This document shows, piece after piece, positions 5,995-19,720 of a stretch of 35,277 nucleotides of DNA. The stretch is taken from the NCBI GenBank assembly GCA_013360395.1, contig JABWBQ010000031.1, positions 1 through 35,277 on the forward strand, written 5' to 3'. Position 1 is the stretch's first letter. Every line of letters begins with the position of its first letter. Origin of the DNA: Flavobacteriales bacterium. GTDB lineage: Bacteria > Bacteroidota > Bacteroidia > Flavobacteriales_F > PHOS-HE28. A program made the position numbers and the translations under genes. The notes under the pieces were generated by a model. It made no database searches. It worked only from the letters and a program-made list of their open reading frames with translations, and was not told the DNA's origin.

Positions 5995-6025
5995 GCGGCG
6001 CCCGGGCACGGTGCCCGGGCGCCGC
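5995..6025. repeat. 31-nt near-perfect palindrome, possible terminator stem
   Basis: Left arm 5995-6009 and right arm 6011-6025 are exact 15-nt reverse complements around a single G. It lies 22 nt after the stop of the EF-G paralog. There is no T-tract, so it is either a non-canonical terminator or an mRNA-stabilising 3' stem; a dimeric operator is also possible because the next gene's -7-like box is at 6064. Confidence 0.6.
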
Positions 6026-6063
6026 GCATGTCCGGGGTCAGCGCGGGTGCGGACGGTGCTGCG

Positions 6064-6071
6064 TACCATTG
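6064..6071 (+). promoter_or_regulatory. -7 box TACCATTG before the halogenase-like gene
   Basis: One mismatch to TAnnTTTG, exactly 5 nt before the ATG at 6077. It predicts a leaderless mRNA and supports this start over the longer open frame beginning at 6011. Confidence 0.5.
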
Positions 6072-6076
6072 CGGCC

Positions 6077-7351
6077 ATGGAGAACGTGGATGTGATCGTG
6101 ATCGGCGCCGGCCCGAGCGGTTGCGTGGCCGCCGCCCACCTCGCCCGGCAGGGCCGGCGGGTGCTGGTGCTGGAGAAACAGGTGTTCCCGCGTTTCGTGA
6201 TCGGCGAGAGCCTGCTGCCGCGCAGCATGGAGCACTGGGAGGAGACCGGCCTGCTGCCCGCGCTGATGGCCCAGGACTATGCGCCCAAGCTCGGCGCCCG
6301 CTTCGTCCGCGGCACCGACGAACTGATCGACCTGCAGTTCGACGACAACTACACCACGGGCTGGACGCGCACCTGGCAGGCCCCGCGCGCGCACTTCGAC
6401 AAGACCGCCGCCGACGCCACCGCCGCGCAGGGCGTGGACATCCGCTACGGCATCGCCGTGGAACAAGTGGACCTCTCGGCCGCCGACCGCGTGCGCGTGA
6501 CGGCCCGGCACCAGGACGGCACCCTGGAGGCCGAAGGCCGGTTCCTGATCGACAGCAGCGGCTACGGCGGCACGCTGGTGAAGCTGTTGAACCTGCCCGA
6601 CGAACGCAGCCCGGTGCCGCGCCGCGCGGTGTTCACCCACGTGCGCGAGCGCGACCGCGACGCCTGGCCCGAGCCCATGCAGATCACTTTCGAGGTGATG
6701 GCCGTGGACCTGTGGTTCTGGGTGATCCCCTTCAGCGACGGCACCACCTCCCTGGGCTTCGTGGGCCATCCGCGCCACTTCGACCCCTTCGATGCGGGTA
6801 GGCCGTTGAAGGAGGCCTGGCGGATCATGGTGGAGCGTTCGGCCCGGTTCAGCGACCGCTTCGCCGACCAGGAGCCGCTCTGGGAGCCGCACGTGCTGAA
6901 TGACTACACCCACCGCGCCGGGCAGCTGTACGGCCGCAACCACGTGCTCACGGGCAACTGCACCGGCTTCCTCGACCCCGTGTTCAGCAGCGGGGTGATG
7001 CTGGCCACCGAGAGCGGGCTGCTGGCCGCCAAGCTCACCGACCGCGTGCTCCGCGGCGAGGCCGTGGACTGGGAGCGCAGTTACAGCGACCACATCCGCT
7101 GGGGCGCCTCGGTCTTCCGCAGCTACATCGATGCCTGGTACAACGGCGACCTGCAGACCATCTTCTTCAACCCCGTGGTGGAGCCGGGCATCCGCAAGCA
7201 GATCATCTCCGTGCTGGCCGGCTACGTCTGGGACCGGAAGAACCCGTTCGTGGCGCGGCACGACCGGATCCTGGGGCAGCTTGCCGGCATGTTGCGGGCA
7301 CAGCGCACCGGCGGCACCGTGACCGAGAACGAGCTGCTGGCGCGCGGGTGA
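6077..7351 (+). CDS. FAD-dependent halogenase/reductase-like oxidoreductase
   Basis: This 424-aa flavoprotein has the dinucleotide motif GAGPSG (10-15) and the GESLLPRS segment (43-50) typical of flavin-dependent halogenases and geranylgeranyl-reductase-like enzymes. A GNCTGFLDPVFSSGV segment forms the second FAD-contact region. It carries WFWVIP at 213-218, which fits the WxWxIP signature of flavin-dependent halogenases. A lysine in PKLGARF (K71) sits where the catalytic Lys of pyrrole/phenol-type halogenases is expected; that assignment is my inference. Halogenation of a phenolic or aryl substrate is therefore possible, but a monooxygenase or polyene reductase role cannot be excluded. It is monocistronic and converges with the M1 peptidase gene, 7 nt stop to stop. 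Confidence 0.75.
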   Translation: MENVDVIVIGAGPSGCVAAAHLARQGRRVLVLEKQVFPRFVIGESLLPRSMEHWEETGLLPALMAQDYAPKLGARFVRGTDELIDLQFDDNYTTGWTRTWQAPRAHFDKTAADATAAQGVDIRYGIAVEQVDLSAADRVRVTARHQDGTLEAEGRFLIDSSGYGGTLVKLLNLPDERSPVPRRAVFTHVRERDRDAWPEPMQITFEVMAVDLWFWVIPFSDGTTSLGFVGHPRHFDPFDAGRPLKEAWRIMVERSARFSDRFADQEPLWEPHVLNDYTHRAGQLYGRNHVLTGNCTGFLDPVFSSGVMLATESGLLAAKLTDRVLRGEAVDWERSYSDHIRWGASVFRSYIDAWYNGDLQTIFFNPVVEPGIRKQIISVLAGYVWDRKNPFVARHDRILGQLAGMLRAQRTGGTVTENELLARG

Positions 7352-7358
7352 CCGACCC

Positions 7359-9233
7359 TCAGCGTTGGCGCTTCCGCTTTCCTTCCTCCGGCGGCACCGG
7401 CGGTGGCGCCCAGCCATCGTTGGTGGCGTCCATGTCGGCCATGCGCCCGGCGGTGAGCAGTTGTACGCCCGCCAACCGGTCGAAGGGCACGGCCACCGGA
7501 ACGCGGAACACCTGCTCGGGCCACGGCCAGGGCTCGGCCACGGTGAAGGGATAAGCCTCCGACCCGGCGGGCTTGGCGCCGCGCATCAGGCTGAGCGGCA
7601 CGTGCACATGGGTCGCCCGCCCGTCGCGGTCCGTCACGCGCAGGTCCACGGGAGAGAGCATCTCCCCCACCCGCCGCAGGACCACCACGGTGTGGTCGCC
7701 CTCGGGCGCCACGCTGTCCACGGCCAGGTCGAGCTCCCGCGTGGTGTTCAGCCACTGGTCGAAGTACCAGTCCAGTTCCACCCCGCTCACCTGCTCCATG
7801 CTGCGCTCCACATCCACCGGGCGCGGATGGCGGAAGCGGCAGCGGTCGTAGAGCCGGCGGAGCCCCTGGTCCACGGTGCGTTCCCCGATCACCGACCCCA
7901 GTTGGTGCAGCACCATCTCACCCTTGCTGTAGGCGGTGATGCCGTAGGCCCGGTTGGTGCGGAAGTGGTCGGCATGCACGGTCATGGGCTCGTTCTCCGG
8001 CAGCTGTTGCAGCATGCGGTAGGCTTCGTAGGCCCCGGCGTGCGGGTCCTTGTCGCCGCCGAACAGGTGCTGCATCACCTTGGAGCCCGCATACTCGGTG
8101 AAGCCCTCGTCCATCCAAGGGTGGTGACCCTCGTCGCTGGCGAGTACGCCGTAGTACCAGCTGTGCACGCTCTCGTGCACACTGACGCCCACCAGGCTGC
8201 CCAGGGACCGTTTGCCGGTGATGAGCGTGAGCATGGGGTACTCCATGCCGCCATCGCCGCCCTGCACGAAGCTGTACACGGGCCAGGGGTAGGGTCCGTA
8301 CCGTTCGCTCATGAACTGGAAGCTGCGCACCATGTAGGCCGGCAACTGTTCCCACACGGGGCGCAGGGCCGGATCGTCCTGGAAGAAGCAGCGCAGCAGG
8401 GGGCCGCCGGGCACCTGGGCGGTGCGCTGCACGTAGTCGGGGTCGGCGGCCCAGGCCACGTCGTGCACGCTGTCGGCGCGGAACACCCAGGTATTGCGGG
8501 CGCTGCGCCCGGCGCGCAGGGGGTCCGGTGCGGCATAGCCGTGGCCGATGGCCTCCGGGTCCTGCAGCACGCCGGTGGCGGCCACGGTGTAGGCGCTGTC
8601 GATGGTGATGCGCAGCACGTGGTCGCCCCATTCGCCGTAGAACTCGCGCGCCACGTACGGGCCCGCGTGCCAGCCGCGGTCGTCGTAGGCCGCCACCTTG
8701 GGGTACCACTGGGTCATGCTGTAGGCGATGCCTTCGGCGTTGTCGCGCCCCGAACGGCGGATCTGCACCGGCACCTGGCCGGTGAACGCCAGTTCGATGG
8801 TGGTGCGGGAGCCCGGGAGGATGGGCGCCGCCGGCACCAGCCGCATGGCGGTCCCCAGGTGTTCCAAGGTCACGGCGCGGCCGTCCTGGCTGCCCGAGGT
8901 GCAACGCAGCTCCCCCTGTTCATGGGGAGCCAGCGCCGCGATGCGCGCGCCCACCCGTGGGTCGGGGTCGGCGATGCTGCGTGAACGGAGGTCCATCTCG
9001 CTTCCCGGCCTGAAGGCGTTGAAGTACAGATGGAACCAGAGCTCGTCAAGGGTGTCCGGGCTTTGGTTGTGGTACACCAGCCGCTCGGTCCCGGTGAAAC
9101 GATGCGTGCGCACGTCCAGGTCCACGCTCAGATCCACCTCGATCCATTGCTGCCAGCGGCCGCATTGCGCGTGCCCCATCATGGCCGCGGTCAGGGCCAG
9201 GGCCAGCCCGGCGGAACGTCCGTACTTGTTCAT
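7359..9233 (-). CDS. Secreted M1 family zinc metallopeptidase
   Basis: The 624-aa protein has an N-terminal signal peptide ending near GHAQ. The M1 N-terminal beta domain occupies roughly 30-250 and the catalytic domain follows. The zinc site is HESVH (353-357), followed 18 residues later by the third ligand E376 in WMDEGFTEY, a classic HExxH-x18-E gluzincin. GGMEYPM stands where the exopeptidase GAMEN motif is found in aminopeptidases; the variant is common in Bacteroidota periplasmic members. It probably cleaves peptides in the periplasm or outside the cell. The start is supported by a -7 box 7 nt upstream. The C-terminus ends in a Pro/Lys/Arg-rich tail. Confidence 0.88.
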   Translation of the reverse strand: MNKYGRSAGLALALTAAMMGHAQCGRWQQWIEVDLSVDLDVRTHRFTGTERLVYHNQSPDTLDELWFHLYFNAFRPGSEMDLRSRSIADPDPRVGARIAALAPHEQGELRCTSGSQDGRAVTLEHLGTAMRLVPAAPILPGSRTTIELAFTGQVPVQIRRSGRDNAEGIAYSMTQWYPKVAAYDDRGWHAGPYVAREFYGEWGDHVLRITIDSAYTVAATGVLQDPEAIGHGYAAPDPLRAGRSARNTWVFRADSVHDVAWAADPDYVQRTAQVPGGPLLRCFFQDDPALRPVWEQLPAYMVRSFQFMSERYGPYPWPVYSFVQGGDGGMEYPMLTLITGKRSLGSLVGVSVHESVHSWYYGVLASDEGHHPWMDEGFTEYAGSKVMQHLFGGDKDPHAGAYEAYRMLQQLPENEPMTVHADHFRTNRAYGITAYSKGEMVLHQLGSVIGERTVDQGLRRLYDRCRFRHPRPVDVERSMEQVSGVELDWYFDQWLNTTRELDLAVDSVAPEGDHTVVVLRRVGEMLSPVDLRVTDRDGRATHVHVPLSLMRGAKPAGSEAYPFTVAEPWPWPEQVFRVPVAVPFDRLAGVQLLTAGRMADMDATNDGWAPPPVPPEEGKRKRQR

Positions 9234-9301: not shown

Positions 9302-9793
9302 TCAGGAAAGCAACCGTTGGCGCAGCGCGAACTCCAGTTGCCGGTTGGTCTCGATCAGCTGTTGCGTGTAGCGCTCCCGCTCCCGATCGGCCTTCACTTC
9401 GGCATGTGCCGCCACCACCAGGGCTTCCAGCCGGGCCGGGTCCCAGGGCTTGGCGATGTAGTTGGTGACGCCGCCCAGGTTCACCGCGTCGATCACGGCC
9501 TGGATATCGGCATAGGCCGTCACCAGCATGCGTTTCACCTGCGGGAAGCGTTCACGCACCAGGCCGAGCAACTGGCTGCCGGTGGTGCCCGGCATGCGCT
9601 GGTCGGCGATGATCACGTCCACCGGCCGGTTGCTCAGGAATTGCCAGGCCTCCTCGAAGCCGCTGGCGGTGAGCACCTCGAAGCTGCGGCGGAAGGTGGC
9701 ATGGAACGCCTGACGGTTCGCGGCGTCATCGTCCACGAACAACACAACGGGCCGGTCGGGGTCGACGCCCAGGTTGAACACGCGGGTTGCCAT
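9302..9793 (-). CDS. Single-domain response regulator (REC plus C-terminal coil)
   Basis: The 163-aa protein is a receiver domain with the acidic pocket DDD (21-23), phospho-acceptor D64 in ADQRMPG and the conserved Lys in AKPWDP. A charged helix of about 35 residues follows. There is no DNA-binding output. It is closely similar to the receiver domain of the hybrid protein at 15228: both have DQRMP, ADIQAVIDAVN and KPWDP. The two are likely paralogs served by the same or related kinases. It is divergent from the ThiF-nitroreductase gene. Start: ATG 9793; a second ATG at 9865 would add 24 residues without domain support. Confidence 0.85.
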   Translation of the reverse strand: MATRVFNLGVDPDRPVVLFVDDDAANRQAFHATFRRSFEVLTASGFEEAWQFLSNRPVDVIIADQRMPGTTGSQLLGLVRERFPQVKRMLVTAYADIQAVIDAVNLGGVTNYIAKPWDPARLEALVVAAHAEVKADRERERYTQQLIETNRQLEFALRQRLLS

Positions 9794-9888
9794 TGCGGAT
9801 CGTTGCGGACCTGGGATGGTCCGGCGCACCCCGTTACGGCACGATGCGTCAGCAGGTTTCGACATCAGTAAAAAATCTTGTTCATAAA

Positions 9889-9918
9889 TTGTTAATAACT
9901 CATCCTTGATTAGCTTTG
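9889..9918 (+). promoter_or_regulatory. Promoter TTG-N19-TAGCTTTG for the ThiF-nitroreductase locus
   Basis: Best promoter in the window: TTG at 9889-9891, 19-nt spacer and a perfect -7 box at 9911-9918, inside an AT-rich patch of otherwise GC-rich DNA. The predicted leader to ATG 9971 is about 45 nt. It probably drives 9971-13050 and perhaps the kinases beyond. Confidence 0.75.
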
Positions 9919-9970
9919 GCCCTGCGGGGGAGCTTGGACACCTCCATCCGCCACTCTTCGGACAAGGACC

Positions 9971-12286
9971 ATGGACAAGGAACTCCGCGCATTGCTGCGC
10001 GAAGCCGGTACGGATACGGCCGGCCATACCCCCCGGATCTTCCGGATGGCGGTGGACGGCGACCGGGCCGAACTGGGCCGGTTGTTCGCGGGCGGGCTGG
10101 TGCACCAGGTGCACGACCGCCTGCAGGACCAGTTGCGCGAGTTGGTGAAAATGGAAGCTCCGGCGCGGCAATTCACCGCGGCGGAACTGGAGCGCGCCGC
10201 CCAGGAACGGTTGCAGGGCACTCCGGCCGAGGCCTACGGCGTGTGGGTCTTCCACCCGTGGAGCGGCCGGCTGGTGCACCTGCTGGACGAAGCGGAGTTC
10301 GCCCGGGTGCGCACGGACCGTAACCGCAACAAGATCACCACCGAGGAACAGCAGCTGCTGGCCACCAAGAAAGTGGGGGTGATCGGCCTGAGCGTGGGCC
10401 GCAGCGTGGCCATGGCGCTGGCCCTGGAGCGTTCCTTCGGCGAGATCCGCCTGGCCGACCACGACCGCCTGGACCTGAGCAACCTGAACCGGATCAAGGC
10501 CGGGGCGCACGAGCTGGGGCTCAACAAATGCGTCGCCACGGCGCGGGAGATCGCCGAGATCGACCCCTTCCTCAAGGTGGTCTGCTTCCCCGAGGGGATC
10601 GACCGCGGGAACATCGACGCGTTCCTCACCGAGGGTGGCAAGCTGGACATCCTGGTGGAGGAATGCGACAGTGTGGACATCAAGATCCTGGCCCGCCAGC
10701 ACGCCAAGGCGCATCGGATCCCGGTGGTGATGGACACCAGCGACCGGGGCATGCTGGACGTGGAGCGGTTCGACCTGGAGCCGGACCGCCCCCTGTTGCA
10801 CGGCTTGATCGACCATCTGGACCTGGCCGCGGCGGCCACCGCGCGGACCAACGAAGAGAAGCTGCCCTTCCTGGCCCCGATGGCGGGCATGGACGCTCTG
10901 AGCCCCCGCATGAAGGCCAGCTTGGTGGAAGTGGGGCAAAGCATCCTCACCTGGCCCCAGCTGGCCACCGGCGTACAGCTGGGCGGAGCCTTGGTGGGTG
11001 ATGTGCATCGCCGGATCGTCCTCGGGGAGATGAACGGCTCCGGCCGGTGGTACGTCGACCTGGAGGAGCTGGTGACCGGAACGACCGGGGTCGTGATGGA
11101 TGGGCGGACCGCGCCCGACGACCACGCCGACGCGTCGGATCCCGCGGAGGAGGAGTCGTACCGCACGCATGCGCCGCTCGCCGTCACCGCAGCCGCCGCG
11201 CGCATCCCGGACGCGCTCGCCCTGCGCATGGCCGAGGCCGCCAGGCTGGCCCCTTCCGCGGACAACATGCAACCCTGGAAGGTGCGGCACAAGGATGGCC
11301 ACCTCCTGCTGCATCACGACCGGGCCAGGTCGCGCTCGGCGCTCGACAGCGAGAGCATGATCCCGCACATCAGCCTGGGCATGTGCCTGGAGAACATGCT
11401 GCTGGCTTCGGCCGGGGCCGGCACGGTGATGGAACCGGCGCTCTTCCCCGCCTCCGACGACCCCTCGCTCATCGCGGTCCTGTACCCGGCCGGGGGCCGC
11501 GGCCCGTCGGCGCTGGACGGCGCCCTGGCGGCACAGATCGCAGCGCGCCACACGGACCGGACCCACGGCAACGGCGGTCCGCTGCGACCCGGGGACCCGG
11601 ATGCCCTGCAGGCTGCGGTGGCGGCCATCCCGGGCGCCGCGCTGCACCTGACCGTGGACAGGTCGGAGATCGACCGGATCGCGGACCTATGCGGCAAGGC
11701 CGACCGGCTGCGGATCATGAACGAGCACGGGCACGCGGAGTTCTTCACCAAGCAGCTTCGGTGGAGCCATGAGGAGGCGGTGCGGTCCGGCGATGGCCTG
11801 GACATCGAGACCCTCGAGCTCACGGCCACCGAGCGGGTGGGCCTGCGCATGGCCTCCTCCAGCCTGGCGATGCGCACCATCCGTCGTGTTTCGGGCGGCA
11901 AGGCCTTGGAGAAGCTCACCGCGAACGCCGTCCGGAGCGCCTCGGCCGTGGCCCTGCTCACCATGCCGAGGATCGACGACGTGCACTGCCTCGAGGGAGG
12001 GCGGGCCGCACAAAGGCTGTGGCTCAAGGCCACGGAACTGGGCCTGGCGGTGCATCCGCTGTCGGCCCCGATCTTCCTGGCCCGGCCCGCACGCCGTCCA
12101 CAGGACCCCTCGCTCACCGCCCCGGAACGGGCCGAAGCGCTCGCCCTCTATACCGAACTGACCGAGGTGTTCCGGCTTCGGGCAGGCGAACCTGTGTTCA
12201 TGGTACGGCTCTCCCGAACGGCCGGCCCGTCGACCAGGTCCGTACGGCGCCCGCTGAACGCGGTGTACACCACGAACGACCACTGA
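9971..12286 (+). CDS. ThiF/E1-like adenylyltransferase-nitroreductase fusion (Rv1355c family type)
   Basis: The protein is 771 aa. Residues about 1-125 are an unassigned N-terminal region. A ThiF/MoeB/E1-like Rossmann domain covers about 130-360, with nucleotide motif GVIGLSVGRS (136-145) and the E1 signature DHDRLDLSNLNR. I see no CxxC zinc motif. From about 410 to 745 there is a nitroreductase-like FMN domain with the flavin-binding segment APSADNMQPW (427-436). The same two-domain order is known from mycobacterial Rv1355c. E1-like domains adenylate a carboxylate; nitroreductase domains do FMN-dependent redox, including dehydrogenation of modified peptides. The natural substrate is unknown. 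It is followed after 5 nt by the acyltransferase-like gene, so they are probably co-transcribed and act together. Confidence 0.8.
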   Translation: MDKELRALLREAGTDTAGHTPRIFRMAVDGDRAELGRLFAGGLVHQVHDRLQDQLRELVKMEAPARQFTAAELERAAQERLQGTPAEAYGVWVFHPWSGRLVHLLDEAEFARVRTDRNRNKITTEEQQLLATKKVGVIGLSVGRSVAMALALERSFGEIRLADHDRLDLSNLNRIKAGAHELGLNKCVATAREIAEIDPFLKVVCFPEGIDRGNIDAFLTEGGKLDILVEECDSVDIKILARQHAKAHRIPVVMDTSDRGMLDVERFDLEPDRPLLHGLIDHLDLAAAATARTNEEKLPFLAPMAGMDALSPRMKASLVEVGQSILTWPQLATGVQLGGALVGDVHRRIVLGEMNGSGRWYVDLEELVTGTTGVVMDGRTAPDDHADASDPAEEESYRTHAPLAVTAAAARIPDALALRMAEAARLAPSADNMQPWKVRHKDGHLLLHHDRARSRSALDSESMIPHISLGMCLENMLLASAGAGTVMEPALFPASDDPSLIAVLYPAGGRGPSALDGALAAQIAARHTDRTHGNGGPLRPGDPDALQAAVAAIPGAALHLTVDRSEIDRIADLCGKADRLRIMNEHGHAEFFTKQLRWSHEEAVRSGDGLDIETLELTATERVGLRMASSSLAMRTIRRVSGGKALEKLTANAVRSASAVALLTMPRIDDVHCLEGGRAAQRLWLKATELGLAVHPLSAPIFLARPARRPQDPSLTAPERAEALALYTELTEVFRLRAGEPVFMVRLSRTAGPSTRSVRRPLNAVYTTNDH

Positions 12287-12291
12287 AACCC

Positions 12292-13050
12292 ATGACCATG
12301 ACCTCCATTGAACTGCATGCCTTCCGCGCGCCGGAGCGCCCCGACCTCTGCGGCGAGTTCCTGCATGAACATCGGCAGGTGCTGGCGGACTACGGGATCT
12401 CCAAGGTCTCGTCGAACACGAACGAGTGGACCACCGATCCGGACTGCATCGTGATCGTGGCCCTGCATAACGAGCTCGGCATGGTGGGCGGGATCCGCCT
12501 GCAACGCTCGCGCGAAGGGCAGCTCCTGCCCATGGAGCGGTCCCTGCTCGAGAAGGCCCCGGCGATCACCGGGGAGATCGCCGCCCTGCGGCCCTACGGT
12601 GTGGGCGAGGTGTGCGGGCTCTGGAACGCCAACCGCTTCGGCGGGTACGGGGTGCCGGTGCTCCTCAGCCATGCGGTCACCGCGGTGAGCCTGCCGGCCG
12701 GCATGAAGCGCATGGTGTGCCTGGTCGCGCATTACACCGAACGGCACCCGCGCACCAACGGCTTCATCCGCCTGGCCTCGGTCGGCGAGGGCGGTTGTTT
12801 CCCCCACTACCCCATCGATTCCCATACGGCCATCGCCATGGTCAATCCGGACACCACCTTGTTGCCGAACGCCAATGCGATGCACCGACAGGTCCTGTTC
12901 AGCCTGCGGTTGCGCCCGACCCAGGTGCGGCAGGAGGCGCCTGCGGGCAAGCCGCTGGAGGTCCATTACAACCTCTGCCTGTCCAACACCCATGTGAGCA
13001 TGGAGACCTATTCCGCGATCCAGACGGAACGGTTGCGGTACTCGGCGTAG
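12292..13050 (+). CDS. Putative GNAT-fold acyltransferase, LuxI/FeeM-like
   Basis: The 252-aa protein starts 5 nt after the ThiF-nitroreductase stop (ATG 12292, or ATG 12298 two codons later). It has a strand IVIVALHNELGMVGGIRLQ, then GEVCGLWNANRF, then a helix and a strand MVCLVAHYTERH. This resembles the layout of autoinducer synthases and N-acyl amino acid synthases (FeeM), in which a VGxxRL strand is followed by an E-x-x-R/G-L segment. The match is by pattern only and is weak. If right, it would transfer an acyl group to a product of the fusion enzyme. The alternative is a family-specific protein of unknown activity that always accompanies such fusions. Confidence 0.5.
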   Translation: MTMTSIELHAFRAPERPDLCGEFLHEHRQVLADYGISKVSSNTNEWTTDPDCIVIVALHNELGMVGGIRLQRSREGQLLPMERSLLEKAPAITGEIAALRPYGVGEVCGLWNANRFGGYGVPVLLSHAVTAVSLPAGMKRMVCLVAHYTERHPRTNGFIRLASVGEGGCFPHYPIDSHTAIAMVNPDTTLLPNANAMHRQVLFSLRLRPTQVRQEAPAGKPLEVHYNLCLSNTHVSMETYSAIQTERLRYSA

Positions 13051-13095
13051 GGAAGGCACGGAACAACGGCCGCAGGTCCTGCGTAGAAGCGCGGG

Positions 13096-15231
13096 ATGCG
13101 CGCGGTGCTCACCATTCTGGCCCTGATCGGGCTGGCCGTTCCCCGGCTGGCGTCGCAGGAGCTCGTGGACTATCGGGGCGAGGCTTACACCGGCTGGCTG
13201 GGCCGGAAGGTCGGCGTCTTTGTGGACAGCACCGCGGGCATGGATGTCCGCGAAGTGTTGTCGCGCGGGCATTTCGTCCCGTCGGACCGGGAGGTTCCCA
13301 ACCTCGGGGTCTCCGCCGCGGCCACCTGGTTCCGGCTCCGCATCGTCAACAACGGGACCGTCGCCGACCCCGTCCTGCTGATCCAGTATCCCGAGATCGA
13401 GGAGGTCGATGTGTATGCATTGGCGGGTGATTCCGTCATCGACCTCGCCCACGTCGGTCAGCGCAGGCCGCAGGACCTGCGGAGCCAGAGCTCTCCGCTG
13501 TACGGGTTCCACATCCCGCTCCCGGTGGGGCGCAGCGCCGACCTCGTGATCCGCCTGCGCAGCCTCAAGCAGCTCCAGGCCCCCATCGCATTCTGTGATC
13601 CCACCTACTTCCACGCCTACTCCACCTACAGGACCTTCTGGGTCGGGGCCTTCATCGGCATCATGGCCGTGATGGGCCTGTACAACCTGTTCGTGTTCTT
13701 CTCCATCAAGGACCGGAGCTATCTGCTCTACGTGGTGTACATCGGTCTGGTCTGCGCCACCCAGCTCAGCTTCCTCGGGGTCCTGGGGTTCACGCTGCTT
13801 CCGGTCAGCAATTGGCTGGCGGCCAACTCATCGCTGGTGCTGACCTGCGCCACGGCGATCGTGGCCGGTGAGTTCATGGGGCACTTCCTGCGCGTTCGCG
13901 AGCACGTGGCGGGGTATGCGAAGGTCCGTGCCGCGGCCATCGTCCTGCTGCTGGGCTGTGTCGCCCTGGTGGTGGCCGGCTTCCGCATCACCGGATACAA
14001 CATCGCACAGATCGGTGTGGGGGCCTACGCGGTCTACCAGTTCTTCATCGCCATCACCCTGCTGGGCAAGCAATCCCGAGCGGCCTCTTATTTCCTGCTG
14101 GCCTGGAGCATGTTCCTCATCGGGGTCATCGTCTTCGTGCTCAAGGACAAGGATGTACTGCCCTACAACGCCTTCTCGAACTACACCATGCCCGTCGGCT
14201 CGGTGGCCGAGGTGCTCCTGCTCTCCTTCGGTCTCGCCGACCGCATCAACATCCTACGGCGCGAGAAAGTGCGCAGCCAGGCCGAGGCGCTGGCCATGGC
14301 CCAGGAGAACGAGCGCATCATCCGTGAGCAGAACGCGATGCTCGAGTCGAAGGTGCAGGAGCGCACCCGGGAGCTGCAGGCCAGCAACGACCACCTGAAG
14401 CGGACCCAGAGCCAGCTGGTGAACGCCGAGAAGATGGCGTCCCTGGGCCAGCTCACCGCCGGCATCGCGCACGAGATCAACAACCCGGTGAACTTCATCG
14501 CGAGCAACATCCCGCCGTTGCGCCGTGACCTGGCGGACGTGCTGGAGGTGCTCCAGGGTTACCGTTCGCTCGACCGCGACGAGGTCCGGCCCGCGGTGTC
14601 CGCGCTGCGTGCCCGGGAGGCCGAGCTGGACCTGGACGGGTCCATCGCCGAGCTGGGCGACATCGTGCGCAGCATCGAGGAGGGCGCCGAGCGGACGGCC
14701 GAGATCGTGCGGGGCCTGCGCAACTTCAGCCGGCTCGACGAGGACGACCTCAAGCTGGCCGATCTGAACGAGGGGCTCCGCAGCACGCTCACGGTGCTCA
14801 CCAACCAGCTGCGCGAGACGGCCGATCTGCGGCTCGAGTTCGGCGAACTGCCGGCCGTGGAGTGCCACCCCGGCAAGCTGAACCAGGTGTTCATGAACAT
14901 CCTGAACAACGCTGTGCAAGCCATCGCCTCCTGCAAGGACCGCCGCCGGGGCACCATCACCGTGCGCACGGCACGGATCGACGACCGGGTGCACATCGCC
15001 ATCGCCGACGACGGGCCCGGCATGACCGAAGCCGTGCTGGCCAAGGTTTTCGACCCCTTCTTCACCACCAAGGACGTGGGCGAAGGCACGGGGCTGGGGC
15101 TTTCGATCGCATACAGCATCGTGGAGAAGCACGGCGGCCGCATCACCGTGGAGAGCCTGCCCGGTGCCGGCACCACCTTCCACATCACCCTGCCCCTGCG
15201 GCAGGAAGCCCGAGGACGACAACGCGCATGA
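13096..15231 (+). CDS. 7TMR-DISM sensor histidine kinase
   Basis: The protein is 711 aa. A signal peptide (to about residue 22) precedes an extracytoplasmic beta-sandwich domain of the 7TMR-DISMED2 type (about 25-165). A run of seven hydrophobic helices spans about 175-390. A coiled coil (QENERIIREQNAMLESKVQERT) leads to the kinase core. The phospho-acceptor is H459 in AGIAHEINNP. The ATPase domain has the N box NQVFMNILNNAVQAI, G1 DDGPGM and G2 GTGLGLSIAYSIVEKHGG. It is a membrane kinase whose outer domain should bind a small ligand. It overlaps the next gene by 4 nt (ATGA), so kinase and hybrid regulator are translationally coupled. No good -7 box precedes it, which fits readthrough from 9971. 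Confidence 0.9.
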   Translation: MRAVLTILALIGLAVPRLASQELVDYRGEAYTGWLGRKVGVFVDSTAGMDVREVLSRGHFVPSDREVPNLGVSAAATWFRLRIVNNGTVADPVLLIQYPEIEEVDVYALAGDSVIDLAHVGQRRPQDLRSQSSPLYGFHIPLPVGRSADLVIRLRSLKQLQAPIAFCDPTYFHAYSTYRTFWVGAFIGIMAVMGLYNLFVFFSIKDRSYLLYVVYIGLVCATQLSFLGVLGFTLLPVSNWLAANSSLVLTCATAIVAGEFMGHFLRVREHVAGYAKVRAAAIVLLLGCVALVVAGFRITGYNIAQIGVGAYAVYQFFIAITLLGKQSRAASYFLLAWSMFLIGVIVFVLKDKDVLPYNAFSNYTMPVGSVAEVLLLSFGLADRINILRREKVRSQAEALAMAQENERIIREQNAMLESKVQERTRELQASNDHLKRTQSQLVNAEKMASLGQLTAGIAHEINNPVNFIASNIPPLRRDLADVLEVLQGYRSLDRDEVRPAVSALRAREAELDLDGSIAELGDIVRSIEEGAERTAEIVRGLRNFSRLDEDDLKLADLNEGLRSTLTVLTNQLRETADLRLEFGELPAVECHPGKLNQVFMNILNNAVQAIASCKDRRRGTITVRTARIDDRVHIAIADDGPGMTEAVLAKVFDPFFTTKDVGEGTGLGLSIAYSIVEKHGGRITVESLPGAGTTFHITLPLRQEARGRQRA

Positions 15232-16769
15232 ACGCCATGACCAAGGAACGCATCAAGGTCCTGTACCTGGACGACGAGGAGGGCAACCTGGTGGCCTTCC
15301 GGGCCAACTTCCGCCGCGACCTGGAGGTGTACACCGCCTCCACCGCCGAGCAGGCGTTGGGGCTCCTCAAGGAGCACAACATCCCGGTGGTGATCAGCGA
15401 CCAGCGCATGCCGCAGGTGAGCGGCGTGGACTTCCTGGCCCAGGTGCGGCAGCGCCATCCGGACAGCATCCGCATGCTGCTCACCGGGTATGCCGACATC
15501 CAGGCGGTGATCGATGCGGTGAACAAGGGGCGGATCCACGCCTACGTCACCAAGCCGTGGGACCCCTCCGACCTGCTGCTGCGGATCCAGCAGGCCCACG
15601 AGGTGCACCGGCTGCGCGCCGACCGCGAGCGACTGCTGCGGCGGTACGAACAGGTCTTCATCACCTCCGGCGACCCCATCGTGATCCTGGACGGGACGGG
15701 CCGCATCCACGAGGCCAACCCCTGTGCCCAGCGGCTGGTGGGGATGGACCGCGAGACCCTGCTGGCCAAGGACTTCAAGGAGCTCCTGGTGGACCCCGGC
15801 GCCCTGCGCCCTGCCCTGAGCGGGCGGCGGCACGGGCGTTCCTTCAACAACGTGGACCTCACGCTGCGCCATGCCAACGGCGGCCTGATCGACGGCCTGC
15901 TGACGGTGAGCTACCTGGGGCGCACCGACGACGGGCACCGCAGCTTCCAGGTGATCCTCAAGGACATCACCGACCGGCGGGCCGAGGAACAGCGCCTGGT
16001 GAAGCTGAACAACGCGCTGGACCGCCGCGTGGCGGTGCGCACCCGCCAGTTGCTGGAGGCCCTGGAGGACCTGGGCGCCTTTTCCTACACGGTGGCGCAC
16101 GACCTGCGGAGCCCCTTGAAGAACGTGCTCGCCCTGAGCCAATTGCTGCACGAGCACCAGGCCCCGGACGACAGCGAGGGGCGGGAGCTGAGCGAGCGCA
16201 TCCAAAAGGGTGCAGGCCGCATGCTCGACCTGGTGAACGACCTGTTGCGATTCTCCCAGACCAACAACCGCGACCTGCAGCGCTCGGATGTCCCGGTGCG
16301 CGAGCTGGTGCAGGAGGTCATGGACGAGCTGGCGCTGTCGCCCGCACCCCACCGGCCCCAGCTGGTGAACGCCGTGCCCCCGGGCAGCGTGCTCCACGCC
16401 GATGGTGCGATGCTCAAGGTGGCCCTCGTGAACCTGCTGTCCAACGCCGTGAAATTCACCCGGCCCGTGGAGGCGCCCCGCATCGAGGTGCTCCTGGAGC
16501 AGGATGGCGGTGGCGATGTGCTGCGGGTGCGCGACAACGGCGTGGGTTTCGACAGCACGGGCACCAAGGCCGTCTTCGGCGCCTTCAAGCGCATGCATCG
16601 GTCGGACCAGTTCGAGGGCAGCGGCATCGGGCTGGCCATCGTGCAGCGGATCGTGAACAAGCACGGCGGGGAGGCCTGGGCCGAGAGCGCCGTGGGCCGG
16701 GGCACCACCATCAACCTGCGCCTGGGCGCCGCCTCGGCCGAGCACACCGCCCTGCCGTTCGCCTCCTGA
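15228..16769 (+). CDS. Hybrid REC-PAS-histidine kinase
   Basis: The protein is 513 aa. An N-terminal receiver domain (about 8-125) carries D58 in SDQRMP and Lys in TKPWDP. A PAS domain (about 138-255) follows, with the typical ITDRRAEEQ exit. A HisKA domain has H291 in VAHDLRSPLKN. A HATPase domain shows VNLLSNAVKF, DNGVGF and GSGIGLAIVQRIVNKHGG. It is soluble, with no membrane segment. The ATGA overlap with the 7TMR-DISM kinase suggests that kinase phosphorylates this receiver, which then gates the second kinase. The single-domain regulator at 9302-9793 is a plausible further target. Confidence 0.9.
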   Translation: MNAMTKERIKVLYLDDEEGNLVAFRANFRRDLEVYTASTAEQALGLLKEHNIPVVISDQRMPQVSGVDFLAQVRQRHPDSIRMLLTGYADIQAVIDAVNKGRIHAYVTKPWDPSDLLLRIQQAHEVHRLRADRERLLRRYEQVFITSGDPIVILDGTGRIHEANPCAQRLVGMDRETLLAKDFKELLVDPGALRPALSGRRHGRSFNNVDLTLRHANGGLIDGLLTVSYLGRTDDGHRSFQVILKDITDRRAEEQRLVKLNNALDRRVAVRTRQLLEALEDLGAFSYTVAHDLRSPLKNVLALSQLLHEHQAPDDSEGRELSERIQKGAGRMLDLVNDLLRFSQTNNRDLQRSDVPVRELVQEVMDELALSPAPHRPQLVNAVPPGSVLHADGAMLKVALVNLLSNAVKFTRPVEAPRIEVLLEQDGGGDVLRVRDNGVGFDSTGTKAVFGAFKRMHRSDQFEGSGIGLAIVQRIVNKHGGEAWAESAVGRGTTINLRLGAASAEHTALPFAS

Positions 16770-17482: not shown

Positions 17483-18565
17483 TCAGTGCTGGTCGTAGTC
17501 GATCAGCACCCTTGCGCTGCGCGGATGGGACTGACAGGTGAGCACGTAGCCCTGCGCCACCTCTTCATCGGTGAGCGCGTAGTTCATGTCCATCTCCACC
17601 CGGCCCTCCACCACCCGCGCCTTGCAGGTGCAGCACACGGCTCCCTTGCAGGCGTAAGGCACGTCCAGCCCCGCCTCGATGGCCGCGTCCAGCACGGGGT
17701 CGCCCTTGGCCGACAAGCGCAGCACATGCTCCCTGCCGTCGAGCCGCACCACCACCTCCGCCTCGCCGGTGAGATCCCCGCCACCGGGGCTCGGAGCCTC
17801 CCGCTTGGCCTCGCTGGTCACCGGACTGGTGAACAGCTCGATGTGAATGCGTTCCTTGCCGACGCCGAGCTTCCCCAGCGCCTCGCTGACGTTCACCATC
17901 ATGGGCTCGGGGCCGCAGATGAAGTACTCGGTGTCGGCATCGTCGCGCACGAACCGCGCGGCCAGGGCCGAGGCCTTCTCCACGGTGATCAACCCGTTGA
18001 AGAGCATGTCCTCATCCTTGCCGAAGGTGAGGATGTGGTGCACGGCGAGACGCCCGCCGTGCCTGGCCTGCAGTTCCTCCAGCTTGTTGCGGAAGATGAT
18101 CCGGTCCGCATCGGTGTTGCCGTAGAACAGGGTGAGGCGGCTGTCGGGCTCGGCCCGCAGCACCGTCTTGATGATGCTCAGGATCGGCGTGATGCCGCTG
18201 CCGCCGGCGAAGCACACGTAGTGCTTGCGGTGCGCGGCGTTCATCCGCGTGTGGAAGTTGCCCATCGGGGTCATCACCTCCAGGGTCATGCCCGGCCGCA
18301 GCTTCTCCACCAGCATGGTGCTGACACGCCCGCCCTCCACACGTTTCACGGCGATGCGCAGCTCCCCGGGGTCCAGCGGGCTGCTGCAGATGCTGTAGCT
18401 CCGGCGCAGCTCCTGCCCGTCCACGAACACCTTCAGCGTGACATACTGACCTTGGATGAAGGTGAAGTCGGTCCGCAGTTCGGCGGGGATCACGAAGCCG
18501 ACGACGATGCTGTCCACCGTTTCGCGATGCACGCTCGCAACGGTAAGGGTGTGGAAACGGGCCAT
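17483..18565 (-). CDS. paaE: Phenylacetyl-CoA epoxidase reductase subunit PaaE
   Basis: This 360-aa reductase has a FAD-binding domain with RRSYSICS, an NAD(P)-binding domain with AGGSGITP and CGPEPMM, and a C-terminal plant-type [2Fe-2S] ferredoxin domain. The iron-sulfur ligands are C306, C311, C314 and C344 (CKGAVCCTC and then LTC). It passes electrons from NADPH to the di-iron PaaA subunit of the phenylacetyl-CoA 1,2-epoxidase. Here it is divergent from paaABC instead of being the last gene of the operon. ATG 18565 fits the family start; a longer frame upstream has no domain content. Confidence 0.9.
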   Translation of the reverse strand: MARFHTLTVASVHRETVDSIVVGFVIPAELRTDFTFIQGQYVTLKVFVDGQELRRSYSICSSPLDPGELRIAVKRVEGGRVSTMLVEKLRPGMTLEVMTPMGNFHTRMNAAHRKHYVCFAGGSGITPILSIIKTVLRAEPDSRLTLFYGNTDADRIIFRNKLEELQARHGGRLAVHHILTFGKDEDMLFNGLITVEKASALAARFVRDDADTEYFICGPEPMMVNVSEALGKLGVGKERIHIELFTSPVTSEAKREAPSPGGGDLTGEAEVVVRLDGREHVLRLSAKGDPVLDAAIEAGLDVPYACKGAVCCTCKARVVEGRVEMDMNYALTDEEVAQGYVLTCQSHPRSARVLIDYDQH

Positions 18566-18622
18566 ACGGGCGATGCTCAAACGGTGATGGCCGATGCCGG
18601 ATCGGGACCGTGCCAAGGGCGG

Positions 18623-18630
18623 CAAAAATA
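18623..18630 (-). promoter_or_regulatory. -7 box TATTTTTG upstream of paaE
   Basis: Perfect TAnnTTTG match on the minus strand, about 57 nt before the paaE ATG, in the divergent paaE/paaA intergenic region. A -33 TTG is not evident. Confidence 0.5.
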
Positions 18631-18747
18631 GCCGCCTCCGGCGACCAGGCCATGCCCGCGGCCGACGACCATACCGTACGACGGCACCCGGTGCCTGTCG
18701 CGGCCCGGCCGGTTGACCGATGTCATGCACGGAGGCGGCCGCCTGCC

Positions 18748-18755
18748 TACTTTAG
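18748..18755 (+). promoter_or_regulatory. -7-like box TACTTTAG upstream of paaA
   Basis: One mismatch to TAnnTTTG, 23 nt before the paaA ATG. Faces the paaE promoter, so both could share a regulator; I see no obvious operator repeat. Confidence 0.4.
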
Positions 18756-18778
18756 CCAACCGATATCCCGGATGCAAG

Positions 18779-19720
18779 ATGGAAGTGACCGACCTCGAGG
18801 CGCGTTTCCAAGCCAAGGTGGACGCCGAACAGAAGATCGAGCCCAAGGACTGGATGCCCGAGAAGTACCGCAAGACGCTCATCCGCCAGATCAGCCAGCA
18901 CGCGCACAGCGAAGTGGTGGGCATGCTGCCCGAGGGCAACTGGATCACGCGTGCCCCGAACCTGCGCCGCAAGGCCATCCTGCTGGCCAAGGTGCAGGAC
19001 GAGGCGGGCCATGGGCTCTATCTCTACAGTGCCTGTGAAACGCTGGGCGTGTCGCGTGAGCAGACCATCGACGACCTGCTGTGCGGCAAGGCCAAGTACA
19101 GCAGCATCTTCAACTACCCCACCCTCACCTGGGCCGACATCGGCGCCATCGGCTGGTTGGTGGACGGCGCGGCGATCATGAACCAGGTGATGCTCTGCCG
19201 CACCAGCTACGGCCCGTACGCCCGCGCCATGGTGCGCATCTGCAAGGAGGAAAGCTTCCACCAGCGGCAGGGCTACGAGATCATGGCCGTGCTCGCCCGC
19301 GGTACGGCGGAGCAGCGTGAAATGGCGCAGGACGCGCTGAACCGCTGGTGGTGGCCCAGCCTGATGATGTTCGGCCCCACTGACGCCAACAGCCCGCACA
19401 GCGCCGAGAGCATGAAGTGGAAGATCAAGCGCCAGAGCAACGACGAACTGCGCCAGACCTTCATCGACCGCACTGTGCAGCAGGCCGAAGTGATCGGTCT
19501 TTCCATCCCCGACCCAGCCCTGAAATGGAACGAGGCCACGCAGCACTACGACTGGGGTGCGATCGACTGGACCGAGTTCAACGATGTTGTGGCCGGCAAC
19601 GGTCCCTGCAACAAGGAGCGCCTCGCAGCGCGCAACAAGGCCCACGACGAGGGTGCCTGGGTGCGTGAAGCAGCATTGGCCTACGCGAACAAGAAGGCGA
19701 AGAAGAAACAAGCAGCATGA
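18779..19720 (+). CDS. paaA: Phenylacetyl-CoA epoxidase catalytic subunit PaaA
   Basis: The 313-aa protein has two ExxH di-iron motifs: [10 protein letters not shown] in the first half and [11 protein letters not shown] in the second, with the usual PaaA spacing. PaaA inserts one oxygen atom into phenylacetyl-CoA, giving the ring 1,2-epoxide, as part of PaaABCE. The start at 18779 ([10 protein letters not shown]) matches the normal PaaA length; the frame extends to 18713 only through a TTG. It is followed by a strong intergenic hairpin and then paaB. Confidence 0.95.

Follow-up and report, generated by a model that had tools for sequence, protein, structure and literature searches.

Described systems closest to the locus

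N-acyl oxazolones are products of a pathway with known enzymology. TrzS (Rv1355c) cyclises and desaturates the N-acyl-tryptophan made by TrzA (Rv1356c). Both OxzAB, of Pseudoalteromonas rubra, and TyzACB catalyse equivalent chemistry on tyrosine or phenylalanine (PMC12856293, PMC10404671). A 2025 paper on tryptazolones describes the physiological role of N-acyl oxazolones as a major unresolved question (PMC12856293). The locus that we describe shares with these systems a predicted FeeM/LuxI-fold N-acyltransferase adjoining a ThiF-FMN oxidase fusion, membership of NCBIfam family NF005901, and an invariant RW motif at the probable equivalent of TrzS R540. Unlike them, it is a Bacteroidota operon with a 7TMR-DISM kinase, a hybrid kinase and a receiver.

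The arrangement also recalls known signalling loci. The Phc system of Ralstonia (phcB-phcS-phcR-phcQ) consists of a signal synthase, a sensor kinase, a receiver-kinase protein with no DNA-binding domain, and a lone receiver. Moreover, Ralstonia strains split into signal types according to PhcB and PhcS sequence (PMC8578825). The likeness is one of architecture only, although a methyltransferase is used in some Bacteroidota loci too. By contrast with Phc, the synthase here is an acyltransferase plus a ThiF/oxidase enzyme, the signal would be of another class, and the receptor is of the 7TMR-DISM type. At agr pherotype loci, signal genes vary jointly with the sensor half of the receptor. Similarly, in the comQXPA pherotypes of Gram-positive bacteria, signal genes and receptor sensor half are variable and are swapped as one, whereas kinase half and downstream regulator stay conserved (PMC4408185). 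Signals of the comQXPA and agr type are modified peptides, whereas the product here is inferred to be a small acyl-amino-acid compound, and the receptor fold is different. Finally, LuxI/LuxR systems have the same acyltransferase fold (LasI, BjaI and RpaI; Z scores of 15-16). However, our locus has a membrane histidine kinase in place of a LuxR-type receptor, and its best fold match is FeeM.

The enzymes and their predicted receptor

The window, meaning the whole stretch of 35,277 nucleotides analysed, comprises bases 1-35277 of contig C3, within a 3.68 Mb genome of 139 contigs. In public records, its genus relatives are uncultured MAGs labelled Flavobacteriales or Bacteroidetes. An earlier note had proposed a set of five genes, and open reading frames with Pfam and NCBIfam matches locate every one as described. 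On the minus strand, a lone receiver of 163 aa with no output domain (9302-9793, ATG at 9793; PF00072, 1.6e-20) is divergent from the synthase operon, and this position is kept in the genus. It had been called a receiver paralog facing away. This is correct, because it lies on the minus strand and, over 142 aa, shares 48% identity with the hybrid-kinase receiver. On the plus strand, 5' of the synthase, there is a promoter-like site, TTG-N19-TAGCTTTG (9889-9918). Most genus loci have similar sites, read by eye from their intergenic sequences. It is a putative instance of the Bacteroidota-type -33/-7 promoter pattern.

The first gene of the operon (9971-12286, plus strand) encodes the ThiF-nitroreductase fusion that had been claimed. 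The 771-aa protein matches Pfam ThiF (1.2e-17; 10316-10732) and Nitroreductase (2.8e-7), and scores 748.8 bits against NF005901, the 'Rv1355c family', for which the cut-off is 476. The FMN-dependent desaturase half lies at about 11180-12085. Identity to the two actinobacterial plasmid homologues compared is 34-35%. Among 17 Bacteroidota homologues, residues R174, K186 and D233 of the ThiF half, and R597-W598 of the oxidase half, are invariant. In M. smegmatis TrzS, R540 is the tested oxidase arginine, and D217 is one of the ThiF-type ATP-binding residues. Position R597 aligns with R542 of the Mycolicibacterium plasmid homologue, no more than two residues from the published R540 number. Note that R540 was located via plasmid homologues, from Rhodococcus and Mycolicibacterium, and the equivalent of D217 was not placed exactly. 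Judged by sequence, the fusion is an oxazolone synthetase of the TrzS/OxzB type; that it produces an oxazolone is inferred. As a separate observation, a GGDEF gene occurs near the TrzS homologue on a Rhodococcus qingshengii plasmid (L217, 3696-7944), and c-di-GMP genes are reported at the M. tuberculosis trzAS genes. Therefore, signalling neighbours occur in both phyla.

For the 252-aa product of the second gene (12292-13050, plus strand), searches of Pfam and NCBIfam, phmmer, and a profile comparison with the PDB gave nothing firm, and only the predicted fold was informative. The AlphaFold2 model, from 60 sequences, has a pLDDT of 92.2. Its top Foldseek match is FeeM (2g0b; E 6.8e-8). With VIA, Z scores were 17.0 for FeeM, 16.1 for LasI and 16.0 for RpaI, with BjaI also near (the LuxI group is at about 15-16). 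The protein thus has the GNAT fold whose absence, according to the earlier note, would have counted against its proposal; FeeM is the best PDB match, followed by CoA-dependent LuxI enzymes. The cut-off of Pfam FeeM family PF21926 is not met (the protein has no match, and one of 34 relatives matches at E 0.1). Hence, we regard it as a fold-level relative of FeeM, outside the Pfam family. Because the GNAT fold is common, this placement rests jointly on match rank, adjacency and the known pathway. TyzA has likewise been reported as nearest to FeeM and BjaI (PMC10404671). The description 'autoinducer-synthase-like' survives as a statement about fold but not as an AHL synthase label. An AHL synthase proper is ruled out, since FeeM is the best match and the locus has no LuxR; an N-acyl-amino-acid synthase of the OxzA/TrzA type is a better description. 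Together, the fusion and the 252-aa protein match the known N-acyl-oxazolone pathway, the product itself being inferred. Loci L096 and L193, identical in sequence, have a tandem pair of acyltransferase genes between synthetase and kinase.

The third gene (13096-15231, plus strand) encodes a 7TMR-DISM histidine kinase, as proposed, which is the predicted receptor. It contains 7TMR-DISMED2 (1.4e-20; about 13204-13593), 7TMR-DISM_7TM (7.5e-40; about 13633-14244) and HisKA with HATPase_c (about 14443-15201), all above Pfam cut-offs. A model of the sensor half (13096-14295) has a pLDDT of 92, and its DISMED2 domain matches the periplasmic domain of RetS. The predicted 7TM bundle has weak Foldseek similarity to human Wntless (E 4.9e-5), the carrier of acylated Wnt. 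This resemblance, between a model and a known protein, is suggestive only, and the text of the eLife lipocone paper makes no link between Wntless and 7TMR-DISM. The stop codon of the 7TM kinase gene overlaps, in an ATGA, the start of the coupled hybrid kinase gene (15228-16769, plus strand), which encodes a receiver-PAS-HisKA-HATPase protein. Neither the hybrid kinase nor the lone receiver has a DNA-binding domain, so both would need partners encoded elsewhere. The operon contains no exporter and no DNA-binding output gene. Just downstream (17483-19720) are divergent oxidoreductase and PaaA-like (phenylacetyl-CoA epoxidase) genes, named by eye only, whose place is conserved across the genus.

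The gene block is well conserved. Of 45 genus genomes, 43 match NF005901; no other genus of the same order is in the set. The full order, from minus-strand receiver through synthetase, acyltransferase and 7TM kinase to hybrid kinase, is found intact in 33 of the 40 genus loci fetched. Hence, the arrangement is not due to chance. Six of the seven incomplete loci are cut by contig ends, and the other (L069) has no receiver in the 1.7 kb upstream. In G013, a genus genome without the synthetase, the kinase is missing too. For other families of the class, acyltransferase and 7TM kinase adjoin the ThiF gene in 36 of 40 loci. Among the best 80 of at least 568 relatives in public genomes, the acyltransferase is present in 79 and the 7TM kinase in 74. 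Of the six loci without the kinase, five are cut short by contig ends, and only Pedobacter Leaf216 (L195) truly lacks it. Across 390 genomes of the class, 63 have both kinase and ThiF, 8 the kinase only, 6 ThiF only and 313 neither (odds ratio of about 410). Note that this count relied on a whole-kinase profile search, with matches of at least 700 bits, and that several ThiF-only cases are contig-truncated. Failure of the fusion and kinases to be conserved together would have refuted the earlier proposal; these counts, and the neighbours kept in public loci, run the other way. The locus also meets a criterion for quorum sensing, namely conserved linkage of synthase and receptor.

The enzyme that accompanies the acyltransferase and 7TM kinase can be exchanged. 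The FMN half is absent, leaving ThiF alone, in about 9 genus genomes and in 14 of the 40 fetched loci outside the genus. A search for a separate desaturase in ThiF-only genomes, by family only, mostly returned a single match; in G020, there is an oxidase-half match on another contig. In six of the eight kinase-only genomes, and in the truncated G144 locus, a SAM-dependent methyltransferase (~260 aa, Methyltransf_25/31) lies between acyltransferase and kinase. This enzyme replaces ThiF in seven loci (L223, L224, L225, L227, L228, L229 and L231), where acyltransferase and sensor kinase stay. Two more (L226 and L236) have acyltransferase and kinase with neither ThiF enzyme nor methyltransferase. 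Hence, the constant core is acyltransferase plus 7TM kinase. Plausibly, though this is an inference, the interchangeable enzyme caps the carboxylate by cyclisation or methylation. In genome G250, the synthetase is alone at L114, and acyltransferase and 7TM kinase are without ThiF at L236; the system may be split or orphaned.

Joint divergence of the enzymes and the sensor half

We compared the window with its close relatives L045, L049 and L051. Identity is high for EF-G (94%), the M1 peptidase (82%), the receiver (90-91%), the hybrid kinase (78-89%) and the kinase half of the receptor (82%). Conversely, it falls to 39-40% for the oxidase half of the synthetase, 48% for the acyltransferase, 31-32% for DISMED2 and 44-45% for the 7TM domain. 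Nucleotide homology with L045 is lost at 11083 and regained at 14092, and the change point in the window's kinase protein is at aa 374. We place the polymorphic unit, comprising oxidase half, acyltransferase and kinase sensor half, at 11083-14217 (plus strand). Locus L035 is of the window's type, because identity is 81-91% over oxidase half, acyltransferase, DISMED2 and 7TM domain. Between the EF-G and M1 peptidase genes there is also a tryptophan-halogenase/FAD-monooxygenase-like gene (6011-7351). This gene is confined to the window's clade (L045, L046, L049, L051 and L065), with any cassette type.

The same pattern is found between genomes that are nearly identical. The source genomes of L047 and L062 are 99-100% identical in two other regions sampled. 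At the locus, flanks are 93-99.8% and kinase halves 100% identical, yet identity is only 34% for the acyltransferase, 26% for DISMED2 and 47% for the 7TM domain. The L062 cassette is instead of the L045/L049/L051 type (acyltransferase 85%, DISMED2 74%, 7TM 91%, oxidase pieces 72-85%). Pedobacter type strains behave similarly. Between P. steynii DSM 19110 and P. caeni DSM 16990, the hybrid kinase is 98% and the kinase half 86% identical, compared with 41% for the acyltransferase, 20% for DISMED2 and 42% for the 7TM domain; homology is lost where the 7TM domain ends. P. polysacchareus is of the P. caeni type. Chimerism of MAGs is ruled out as a general cause of the swap, because these isolates, each with the locus on one long contig, show the same break. 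Note that the G001 allele itself, at L062, has an oxidase half interrupted at two places (8028-8611), and is either a pseudogene or affected by sequencing errors.

Between close relatives, nitroreductase half, acyltransferase and sensor half co-diverge to 20-50% identity, while kinase half and flanks remain at about 80-100%. On sequence evidence, the locus behaves like a pherotype locus, with synthesis genes and sensor half exchanged jointly; type-specific activation is inferred. Such joint diversification and swapping is what a cognate signal and receptor pair predicts. Co-variation and swapping of this kind are also known from bacteriocin loci and from polymorphic toxin/immunity loci. Hence, the locus could instead serve antagonism, by making a narrow-spectrum antibiotic, with the sensor detecting self product or competitors and switching immunity on. 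Related N-acyl tyrosines, from Stieleria, are reported to be antimicrobial (PMC12856293). Nevertheless, no immunity or transport gene was recognised within the conserved block and the variable partner is a sensor kinase. We consider antagonism very unlikely, and note that it would still include sensing of the product.

Statistical tests support joint divergence of enzymes and sensor half. In partial Mantel tests within the genus, controlling for the kinase domains, correlations were 0.65 for acyltransferase and DISMED2, 0.50 for acyltransferase and 7TM, 0.51 for oxidase and 7TM, and 0.47 for ThiF and DISMED2, with p-values at the permutation floor. Controls for the acyltransferase gave -0.11 with the receiver, -0.01 with the coil, -0.23 with PAS and 0.02 with M1; the CTD gene was within -0.23 to 0.02. 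Outside the genus, values were 0.39 for acyltransferase and DISMED2, 0.61 for oxidase and DISMED2, and 0.04 for DISMED2 and receiver, but 0.29 for acyltransferase and lone receiver. Since p-values from such tests are optimistic for related sequences, the contrasts carry more weight. Separately built acyltransferase and sensor trees both place L062 with L045, L049 and L051. In AU tests, these trees reject two groups that are fully supported in the kinase tree (L047 with L062, and a clade of the window, L035 and L045/L049/L051). Likewise, the kinase data reject the cassette groups. These tests are only confirmatory, because the groups were named after identities had been seen.

The enzyme genes adjoin the sensor half, so that a single recombination tract could move both without any functional matching. 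Part of the co-variation could come from physical linkage and nothing else, and matching of sensor to product lacks experimental support. A stronger version holds that these genes are merely fast-evolving neighbours, whose co-variation is nothing but linkage in recombination tracts. The nitroreductase half, acyltransferase and sensor are contiguous, and the divergent tract of Pedobacter also includes ThiF and the lone receiver. However, pairs from different families have their downstream break repeatedly in or near TM7, and the kinase half of that polypeptide is conserved. In every one of the ten divergent pairs, the change point in the kinase lies within residues 323-374, and for seven pairs the range narrows to 366-374, i.e. 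in or near TM7; the pairs are not all independent but come from different families. Moreover, old alleles would not persist in near-identical genomes through drift alone. We therefore give the stronger version very little credence. Matching is not strict, because in one sub-clade the acyltransferase is 75-85% identical while the sensor falls to 36-52%.

We also asked how well each tree fits presence or absence of the oxidase half. Three changes are needed on the sensor tree (none of 1000 shuffles needed as few), four on the acyltransferase tree (2 of 1000) and seven on the kinase tree (415 of 1000). Hence, within a single protein, the chemistry is tracked by the sensor half but not by the kinase half. 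This bears on another explanation, in which the locus makes a membrane lipid or a stress metabolite, and the two kinases merely regulate its synthesis by monitoring envelope or redox state rather than the product. Actinobacterial Tyz/Trz lipids are linked to stress, and oxazolones largely stay in cells (PMC12856293, PMC10404671). Indeed, tryptazolones of Mycobacterium and Rhodococcus are mostly cell-associated, which counts against signalling (PMC12856293). Regulators also commonly adjoin biosynthetic operons. Yet a sensor of general stress would not be expected to diversify along with the enzymes that determine the product, or to track presence of the oxidase half, and the kinase persists where a methyltransferase replaces ThiF. 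We think a lipid or stress role unlikely, without dismissing it.

A putative signalling operon and its implications

We consider it likely that the locus is a chemical-signalling, quorum-sensing-like operon with polymorphic specificity. Enzyme families, operon conservation, co-variation and swapping support this, as far as sequences and structural models can; product, export, ligand binding, direction of phosphotransfer and output are inferred. The idea in the earlier note, that enzymes for a small acylated product sit beside a ligand-binding receptor, gains support in turn, having passed both of its refutation checks, and the sensor half co-diversifies with the enzymes. The most likely function is synthesis of an N-acyl amino acid with a capped carboxyl group, in this case an oxazolone, and its sensing by the cognate 7TM kinase, although ligand and product are both inferred. 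Against this, there are no ligand-binding, metabolite or expression data. Furthermore, oxazolones hydrolyse easily, which would be awkward for a long-range signal (PMC12856293).

Briefly, the proposed mechanism is as follows. The FeeM/LuxI-fold enzyme would N-acylate an amino acid, using acyl-CoA or acyl-ACP. The ThiF half would activate the carboxylate with ATP and close the ring, giving an oxazolone that the FMN half may then desaturate. The lipophilic product would leave the cell by diffusion, or through an unlinked exporter, and be detected by the neighbouring histidine kinase through its DISMED2-7TM part. This kinase would phosphorylate the receiver of the hybrid kinase, the divergent lone receiver, or both, which may act via partners encoded elsewhere. 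Enzymes that determine chemistry, and the sensor half of the receptor, would be inherited and swapped as one unit, giving rise to pherotypes.

The enzymology of the pathway is already known; the Bacteroidota operon, its receptor and the pherotype structure appear to be new, since the open-access literature (subscription papers were outside our scope) yielded no earlier report of any of these, only papers on the enzymes. With rather less assurance than for signalling as such, we also lean towards a broader proposal. Namely, that this is a Bacteroidota communication system absent from the papers searched, in which a LuxI/FeeM-fold N-acyl-amino-acid synthase and a carboxyl-capping enzyme (a methyltransferase, or ThiF either alone or with an oxidase) make a private pheromone read by their cognate 7TMR-DISM kinase. 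Its pherotypes would be many and recombining, and oxazolones would be its signals.

The locus suggests a purpose for oxazolones, since the pathway is linked with a dedicated receptor across many genera of Bacteroidota, and this includes type strains of Pedobacter that are in culture. Because of that link, the signal hypothesis is directly testable. If true, Bacteroidota would have an acyl-type quorum-sensing system, and one subfamily of the 7TMR-DISM receptors, which are largely orphans, would gain a suggested ligand class. It would also provide a naturally recombining set of pherotypes outside the peptide systems, where such sets are best known.
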